A DNA stretch of 56,731 bases from an uncultured Granulosicoccaceae bacterium (GTDB lineage Bacteria; Pseudomonadota; Gammaproteobacteria; Granulosicoccales; Granulosicoccaceae): contig CALFCF010000107.1 of NCBI GenBank assembly GCA_937951345.1, positions 1 through 56,731 on the forward strand, given 5' to 3'. The position numbers and the translations under genes are program-made. A model generated the notes under the pieces. It ran no database searches, was not told where the DNA came from, and saw nothing but the letters and a program-made list of their open reading frames with translations. Below, in pieces: positions 1 through 42,854 of the stretch. How positions within the stretch are numbered: position 1 is the stretch's first letter; the number at the start of each line of letters is the position of its first letter.

Positions 1-28
1 CTGCCTCGCCTAATAAATCAGAGGTTCC
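1..28. repeat. Right end of 140-bp MITE-like element (copy D, cut by window edge)
   Basis: The first 28 bases match the last 28 bases of the 140-bp element found complete at 11906, 21319 and 38618, ending in the terminal repeat AATAAATCAGAGGTTCC. The rest lies outside the window. The base after the terminus begins CAAA rather than the TTAA or TTAG that follows the other three copies, so the target duplication is altered here or this copy has recombined. Confidence 0.85.
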
Positions 29-11851: not shown

Positions 11852-11905
11852 GTTTCAGTCCGGTTGGTGTGTCTAACGACAATAGCGTGTCAACAAATTA
11901 GTTAG

Positions 11906-12045
11906 GGAACCTCTGATTTATTGCCTGCGTTGCCAGGGCTGCGTTGAAATTCGGCTCAAAATACTCATGTATTCGCATATACACTGCGCTTTTTCGCCAA
12001 ATTTCGCCTTGCCCTGCCTGCCTCGCCTAATAAATCAGAGGTTCC
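11906..12045. mobile_element. 140-bp MITE-like element, copy A (inside the liu operon)
   Basis: Ends in perfect 17-bp inverted repeats GGAACCTCTGATTTATT / AATAAATCAGAGGTTCC. It is flanked by the direct repeat TTAG on both sides (11902-11905 and 12046-12049). The arms are imperfectly complementary over their whole length. The inner hairpin TGTAT-TCGCAT-ATACA (11968-11983) is centred on 11975.5, exactly the midpoint. No coding capacity. It lies between liuA and the thiolase gene. Confidence 0.9.
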
Positions 12046-12075
12046 TTAGTGTGTAGGTTAAAGATTTACCAGTGA

Positions 12076-21219: not shown

Positions 21220-21318
21220 CGGTCTTTCAAAGTTTTAAAAGTTGTTAGTAGTGGCACTTGTCACTGACTGATCGAGCATCCCCAGCTGCTGAATTCCAAA
21301 CTTTATTCATTTATTTAA

Positions 21319-21458
21319 GGAATCTCTCATTTATTGCCTGCGTTGCCAGGGCTGCGTTGAAATTCGGCTCAAAATGCTCATGTATTCGCATATACACTCC
21401 GCTTTATCGCCAAATTTCGCCTTGCCCTGCCTGCCTCGCCTAATAAATCAGAGGTTCC
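21319..21458. mobile_element. 140-bp MITE-like element, copy B (between convergent genes)
   Basis: Same length, orientation and internal palindrome as copy A. Flanked by TTAA on both sides (21315-21318 and 21459-21462). The left terminal repeat has two changes (GGAATCTCTCATTTATT); the right is unchanged. It lies between the ends of the GGDEF gene and the minus-strand VTT-reductase gene, eight bases from the latter's stop, so its hairpin could end transcripts from both sides. Confidence 0.9.
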
Positions 21459-21466
21459 TTAACTGT

Positions 21467-38610: not shown

Positions 38611-38617
38611 CAGTTAA

Positions 38618-38757
38618 GGAACCTCTGATTTATTGCCTGCGTTGCCAGGGCTGCGTTGAAATTCGGCTCAAAATGCTCATGTATTCGCCTATACACTCCG
38701 CTTTTTCGCCAAATTTCGCCTTGCCCTGCCTGCCTCGCCTAATAAATCAAAGGTTCC
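38618..38757. mobile_element. 140-bp MITE-like element, copy C (between convergent genes)
   Basis: 140 bp with the same arms and orientation as copies A and B. Flanked by TTAA on both sides (38614-38617 and 38758-38761). The right terminal repeat has one change (AATAAATCAAAGGTTCC). It sits eight bases after the alr stop codon and 160 bases from the end of the convergent permease gene. Confidence 0.9.
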
Positions 38758-38872
38758 TTAAATAGACGGCGGAGAATATTAAAAAACAGCCCGGTTAATG
38801 GGTTGGGTAAGAAACGATTGATTCGGTAGTACTTGAGGTATCAACGTTTTTTTGCTGATACGAGTGAAGGCA

Positions 38873-42211: not shown

Positions 42212-42420
42212 ACGTTTCACCCGCTCTCTCTCTTCCGGACTATGACCGTCGGCTCCGGATTTGAACCGGATCTGCTGACCACCGGCATTTCGCCGGTGCG
42301 CTCGCGGGCTTCCTGACAGTGCAATTGTTTGTCGGGATGAGCACCAGTGAAGGTACACACCCGTTGGATGCATTGTGTCGGTTACCGCCGGTGGGGAATT
42401 ACACCCCGCCCCGAGAACGT
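42212..42420 (-). promoter_or_regulatory. FMN riboswitch (RFN element) controlling ribH
   Basis: Read on the minus strand, the conserved RFN core is present in order: GGGGCGGGGTGTAATTCC, ACCGGCGGTA, GCCCGCGAGCG, ACCGGCGAAATGCCGGT (variable hairpin), GGTCAGCAGATCCGGT and GCCGACGGTCATAGTCC. Closing stem ACGTT (42420-42416) pairs with AACGT (42216-42212). About 245 bases of leader separate it from the ribH ATG; I could not identify the expression platform, although GGGC and GCCC segments near the ribosome site could sequester it. Confidence 0.96.
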
Positions 42421-42854
42421 TTGATCACTTATGGATAGCGAACTTCTTTTAAACTTCTGTTCTAAAGTCAGTTTGCAAGCCGCAGTGATCGGTTAACTTG
42501 TTACATATACGAGTATAAGGGCCCGCTGGGACCGTCGCAATGCCTGTTGGCCGCTTTGTCGTTATGGCTTTGGGTCAGCAGATGTCAATTTAGCGACACA
42601 GCGCACATTGACAGCAGGAAGCTATCCGGCGGGGTGGGCTTTGGCTGAGCCCGCGATCAGTTTCAAAGTGACTGCATAGACTGTTGCAGTTACTTTACTA
42701 ATCCACTGATTTGCCTGAAAAAGGCGAGTTTCCCCTCAGGCAGCCGCCCAAGTTGGGCAAATTTCCGGTAAATTTCGGGTAGGGGAAGGCATTCCGTTAA
42801 AGGATTCCATCGCCATCGCAAACAAGGTGCAACAGTCTATGCACCCACTTTGGG
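42421..42854. other. Gap between the riboswitch and tesA
   Basis: No gene visible. It should hold the promoter of the riboswitch transcript (minus strand, just upstream of 42420) and the tesA terminator at 42826-42845. A purine-rich block at about 42720-42790 has no recognised role. Confidence 0.5.
42826..42845 (-). terminator. Rho-independent terminator of tesA
   Basis: On the minus strand GGTGCA (42845-42840) pairs with TGCACC (42831-42826) around an eight-base loop and is followed by TTGTTT. It lies ten bases after the tesA stop codon. Confidence 0.6.

Follow-up and report, generated by a model that had tools for sequence, protein, structure and literature searches.

The 140-bp elements of the window, i.e. 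of the whole 56,731-nucleotide stretch of DNA that was analysed, are a real MITE family, because YTAR duplications flank 31 of 41 readable copies and the source genome also has empty sites with a single TTAG, and this family is recently expanded and mobile. Comparison with copies from other genomes has shown, at the level of sequence, that the elements belong to a superfamily constructed from three nested modules, namely exchangeable tips, intermediate arms and one imperfect-hairpin core. An earlier note on this DNA had interpreted the elements as MITEs, and this interpretation is supported; that their interior is a widespread conserved module was not visible from the window.

The features of the window are given below. 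The core is the region matched by R1, a covariance model built from 49 non-redundant copies, and the core coordinates of copy 1 were transferred from the R1 match in another copy (C55:13275-13372 within C55:13254-13393).

11906..12045, plus strand: MITE copy 1, 140 bp, with perfect 17-bp TIRs
11902..11905, no strand: left target duplication of copy 1, TTAG, flank sequence
12046..12049, no strand: right target duplication of copy 1, TTAG, flank sequence
11927..12024, minus strand: conserved hairpin core of copy 1, R1 model region, element positions ~22-119, with the apical stem-loop central
21319..21458, plus strand: MITE copy 2, 140 bp, with TTAA at 21315-21318 and 21459-21462
21340..21437, minus strand: conserved hairpin core of copy 2, R1 model region
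38618..38757, plus strand: MITE copy 3, 140 bp, with TTAA at 38614-38617 and 38758-38761
38639..38736, minus strand: conserved hairpin core of copy 3, R1 model region
1..28, plus strand: right end of copy 4, truncated at the contig start; the same physical copy as G000:C54:114-253, without duplication

The three complete copies described in the earlier note were recovered at these positions, each of 140 bp and with 95% or greater similarity across a repeat of 151 bp. Its description of their 4-bp duplications (TTAG/TTAG, TTAA/TTAA and TTAA/TTAA), of the 17-bp TIRs, which have two mismatches in copy 2 and one in copy 3, and of the absence of coding in the 140-bp elements was likewise borne out, and the inner hairpin is indeed centred on the midpoint, the apical loop occupying element positions 68-73. 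The arms, which had been described as imperfect complements end to end, are complementary only with internal loops, a straight register pairing 38-41 of 70 positions; it is these internal loops that proved to be conserved. The fourth hit, at 1-28, is a genuine MITE right end but is cut by the start of the contig: the window is the whole of contig C107, which starts with 141 bases that recur without change at the end of contig C54 (113/113 outside the element), where the copy is complete and is flanked by TAAA/CAAA, i.e. by no target duplication. The common orientation of the four hits proved to be chance, as the genome has both orientations and contig orientation is arbitrary. Each strand of the window elements folds far better than shuffled sequence, with z of -5.3 to -7.1 as DNA and of -8.1 and -9.0 as RNA.

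The source genome (G000) is a 115-contig draft of 4.49 Mb that is 95.5%-complete. When the whole draft was searched with the 17-bp termini at no more than two mismatches, 66 forward and 66 reverse matches were obtained, with none for the reversed control; the number of copies is about 65-100, so that the previous estimate of hundreds per genome was too high. An element search of the genome was also conducted, in which 40 of 99 first-look candidates were scored. Among the 41 copies that are readable on both sides, 34 are of 140 bp, three of 135 bp, one of 139 bp and three are internal deletions of 47-61 bp; both tips and the duplication are retained in the internally deleted L057, L235 and L247 (47 and 61 bp). 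The flanks are duplicated in other copies too, as the MITE reading of the earlier note requires: a perfect 4-bp repeat is present in 32 of the 41, and in 31 it is YTAR, whereas shuffling of flank partners gave 8.9 perfect duplications on average and never more than 18. Empty sites were found within the same genome, where a larger repeat bears the MITE at the junction of GGAAATTGCTTAG and TTAGTTTTCATTG in L013 and L014, and its unoccupied copies, L042 (GGAAATGGCTTAGTTTTCATTG) and L242 (GGAAATTGCTTAGTTTTCAGTG), have one TTAG each. The 140-bp elements are missing from two genomes of the same genus and from the remaining members of the family that were searched. In genome G001 the orthologous spacer of copy 1 is without the element and about 133 bp shorter; this spacer is too diverged for the exact empty site to be read, and the within-genome empty sites were used instead.

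Some further observations on the source genome are recorded here. Another dispersed repeat, about 260-350 bp long and with ends like CCTGCTCTATTCAYGAAG, occurs at L013, L014, L042, L043, L234, L238, L242 and L247, and has repeatedly been occupied by the 140-bp MITE at one YTAR site. L054 (G000:C48:64913) has only one half of a MITE, which ends in a break at the apical loop; its left flank (TAGTCGATTACAAACTCTAG) is then repeated behind it, as if a hairpin-driven rearrangement had copied the flank. Contig ends lie inside MITE copies in C1, C39, C43, C56, C65, C76, C107 and C112, and since so many contigs start or stop there, the family itself breaks the assembly.

The earlier note held that the elements, having no coding capacity, must be moved by a transposase elsewhere, and that their duplications fit the YTAR target of IS5-family transposases. 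The form of the tips and the YTAR target agree with this family, a 4-bp YTAR target duplication being the rule for the IS5 group, and from these two features and general knowledge of IS families we infer a trans-acting transposase of IS5 type, although no partner has been found. The 95.5%-complete draft was searched for an autonomous IS with matching ends, as that note had proposed, with Pfam DDE models, for tip pairs at IS-sized spacing and for tips in the vicinity of IS loci, and none was found. Profile searches with PF01609/PF05598 gave two loci only, with other or unresolved ends, and both were rejected as partners: L060 (G000:C93) is a frameshifted IS5-type gene with different ends (GTCGGCCCTGAGTAAT) and TA at each flank, and the second is intact, lies at the end of a contig and has no element-type tip nearby. 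PF13586 had no match in the source genome, nor did this genome contain IS-sized pairs of the 17-bp termini. The complete Pseudomonas-like genome that has 82 core-box matches likewise yielded no autonomous element with such tips, and none was found among the PF01609 loci of four other genomes. The 1104-bp L343, although its tips match and it has CTAG duplications, was rejected as an autonomous partner as it contains a large palindromic insert and no transposase. The partner may have been lost, may be missing from the assembly or may reside in another host. One tip class, t6 (GAGGGTGTTTACAAA), resembles the ends of ISPsy19, GAGGGTGTAGACAAAAT (PMC3189936).

When relatives were searched with the whole element, matches in other families of the class were limited to positions 33-118, with 76-86% identical bases, and these copies have different ends. 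An exact pattern of the central hairpin was found in 18 of 369 class genomes, from 13 genera (reversed control, 0), and R1 at E<=1e-5 matched 90 of 299 phylum genomes. Among the matches listed from a scan of named genomes are Pseudomonas, Halomonas and relatives (Halomonadaceae), Marinomonas, Pokkaliibacter, Nitrosomonadales, Gallionella, Magnetococcales and, from the Bacteroidota, many Alistipes/Rikenellaceae gut genomes. The core lies almost always within fold-back elements of 90-165 bp. Viral contigs gave two matches to it, and E. coli genomes and phage records gave none. Rfam 15 has no match for the core; the sole match in the window is an FMN riboswitch elsewhere (42219-42422, minus strand, 98.2 bits). 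A description of the core was not found in the papers searched, and a literal search of paper texts for its letters returned unrelated papers only, but sequence letters are seldom present in the text of papers, so that priority is not established.

Terminal repeats are detectable in 137 of 160 distinct core copies, whose lengths are mostly near 140 bp, and 35 of these 137 have exact 4-bp duplications, compared with 2.5 by chance. The core is found between at least 12 unrelated tip classes. In the best-resolved of these the type of duplication tracks the tip class, being 4-bp YTAR for t1 and t2 and 3-bp TNA for t3; that is, YTAR accompanies GGAACCTCTGATT-like and CAGGCTGTTGAAAAA-like tips, and TTA, TAA or TGA accompanies GARCCTGTTCACGATC tips. 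Tips and arms occur in the following combinations.

Tip t1: arms A (L001), B (L092) and C (L094)
Tip t2: arms A (L142), B (L205) and D (L089)
Tip t3: arms B (L221) and C (L071)
Tip t5: arms A (L111) and C (L065)

Arm type B is combined with at least eight tips; the count for arm class C is inflated by t2 and Bacteroidota tips containing GCTGAA, and for this class we rely on L094, L065 and L071 only. A 16-nt sub-insert in the left arm (GTGCGCGAGTCCGATC) is common to two copies with different tips, one on a P. aeruginosa plasmid and one from Halomonas, and this is best explained by module exchange. Palindromic sub-inserts at internal-loop positions were also observed in core elements of up to 305 bp and 1104 bp (L332-L339, L343 from G575, L253 and L254), and these are common to different genera.

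On its minus strand the core consists, from the outside in, of a variable stem, a CAAGGC//AACGC loop, a second variable stem, a CGA//GAG tandem G.A loop, a stem, a GCGGAG//TGAG loop and an apical stem, and the purine-rich internal loops stay constant on this strand. In the 49 sequences 94.0% of cells are paired, as opposed to 75.8% when shuffled and 32-44% when partners are slid; double changes number 253, against 70 shuffled and 34-61 slid, and one-sided changes number 17. The search pattern fixed two 13-base boxes, and the invariance of these boxes in alignment A1 is by construction. The loops outside the pattern (AAGGC and AACGC) are at least 90% conserved beside freely varying stems. Furthermore, 41 distinct copies found by R1 that do not have both boxes together keep the loop letters while their stems vary, with swaps between kept loops such as AAAA/TTTT to GCAGC/GCAGC or GGCC/GGCC, which places the sequence constraint in the loops and not in the stems. 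We conclude that the core probably serves the element's own mobility at the DNA level, its exact role being unproven.

The main rival explanation is that these are ordinary IS5-type MITEs, the interior being the inherited filler of one old, widely transferred MITE whose tips have drifted or been replaced, with no present function. Indeed, MITE features account fully for the window, the tips form a partly graded series (GGAACCTCTGATT, GGAAACCTCTGATT; GGGCGCCTCTATAAA, GGGCACCTCTAAAAA), and hairpin-templated repair alone can create covariation without selection, a point that also tells against a role in mobility. However, the loops of a filler should drift as its stems do, and templated repair should erase mismatched loops, yet the AAGGC and AACGC loops are conserved to the extent described and are retained in the R1-found copies. 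The conserved mismatched loops speak against this explanation without disposing of it, and we think it less likely than not.

Placed copies are mostly intergenic: 13 of ~139 are inside genes, as compared with ~74% of the YTAR sites of the same loci. A second rival is that the core acts as RNA, such that the hairpin in a read-through transcript changes the stability of the mRNA or is bound by a host protein, and insertions are retained for this effect; other MITEs act through RNA in such ways (review PMC10969869). In keeping with this, the RNA fold is stable (z -8.1 and -9.0), the tandem G.A motifs are on one strand, G-U pairs are commoner when the minus strand is read, and in the named-genome set copies are depleted between divergent genes (6 of 82 versus 23% expected) with some enrichment between convergent genes. 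On the other hand, the core strand shows no bias with respect to flanking genes, agreeing with co-directional gene pairs in 39 cases and opposing them in 40, and there is no match in Rfam. Wobble is also rare, with 17 one-sided as against 253 double changes, and in typical RNA families wobble changes are not so rare. The lack of gene-strand bias together with strict Watson-Crick compensation and little wobble argues for, although it does not prove, action at the DNA level, and we judge a function as RNA to be improbable. A third possibility, that the core serves as a substrate for single-strand DNA recombination in the manner of attC or REP/IS200-type hairpins and is mobilised by its own strand-specific enzyme, is very hard to credit. 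Strict Watson-Crick covariation and constant unpaired letters resemble attC and REP logic, but target duplications together with varied TIR tips are the mark of DDE enzymes, the element nearly always includes its TIR tips, and 45 of 82 matches in one complete genome are fork-codirectional (p=0.44), i.e. there is no strand bias tying the core to replication as a single-strand substrate. A replication-strand bias seen in a subset of tip matches was gone when all 82 matches were included.

The reading that we prefer, and consider to have an even chance of being correct, combines IS5-type trans-mobilised MITEs, a tip-exchanging superfamily and a core fold that aids movement or survival. According to this model, the window elements, which are non-autonomous fold-back transposons, would be moved in trans by an IS5-type DDE transposase, which would recognise the outer ~17 bp, insert the element at YTAR and duplicate that sequence. 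The exchangeable tips would fit different transposases, and the core would persist through tip exchange because its folded form, either a cruciform or single-stranded hairpin DNA, would help very short elements to move or survive with any transposase. A new tip captured at one end may then be copied to the other by hairpin-templated repair. We put forward more tentatively, as possible rather than probable, that the common chassis of fold-back transposons is one folded DNA module, which has spread across at least two phyla and exchanged its tips so as to use many unrelated transposases, with the fold itself a working part, e.g. as a host-factor site or a synaptic-complex device for ~100-bp elements. 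Bacterial MITEs are usually seen as internal-deletion relics, each of one insertion sequence; a conserved covarying core with many tips suggests a separate lineage that survives by transposase switching. Why some very short elements succeed thereby becomes testable, and the R1 model is a way to annotate repeats that now carry no label in many genomes of proteobacteria.

Among elements shown by experiment to be active, the closest in kind is MITEPsy1 of Pseudomonas syringae pv. phaseolicola, a non-coding element of ~100 nt with 18-bp TIRs, a 4-bp CTAG or YTAA duplication and IS5-like ends, which transposes in vivo (PMC3189936). It resembles the present elements in being short and non-coding and in its TIRs and YTAR target, but it is tied to a single IS, ISPsy2 (PMC3189936), and its interior is without the conserved core, R1 giving 13.3 bits (E=0.21) with the copy on plasmid pRSB105, which was used for this comparison and not the P. 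syringae virulence plasmid. As MITEPsy1 is active without it, the core is not necessary for the movement of a YTAR MITE. The R0/R2 repeats of Pseudomonas fluorescens SBW25 are 89-110-bp intergenic inverted repeats, present in hundreds of copies, which are thought to be MITEs since their ends match IS ends and which have a core of variable size (PMC2718517); set side by side by description only, they and the present core could be related. TIMEs (PMC4133298) are also non-autonomous and mosaic, with short conserved interior stretches, and are wide in Pseudomonas, but they have Tn3-family ends, are larger (about 256 bp and up) and depend on one transposase family. Finally, REP/REPIN sequences and GTAG/CGTC palindromes (PMC3733652) share with the core conserved unpaired letters, variable stems and an occurrence in many phyla, but differ from it in their size of 20-40 bp, in having no TIR tips and in their association with RAYT tyrosine transposases.
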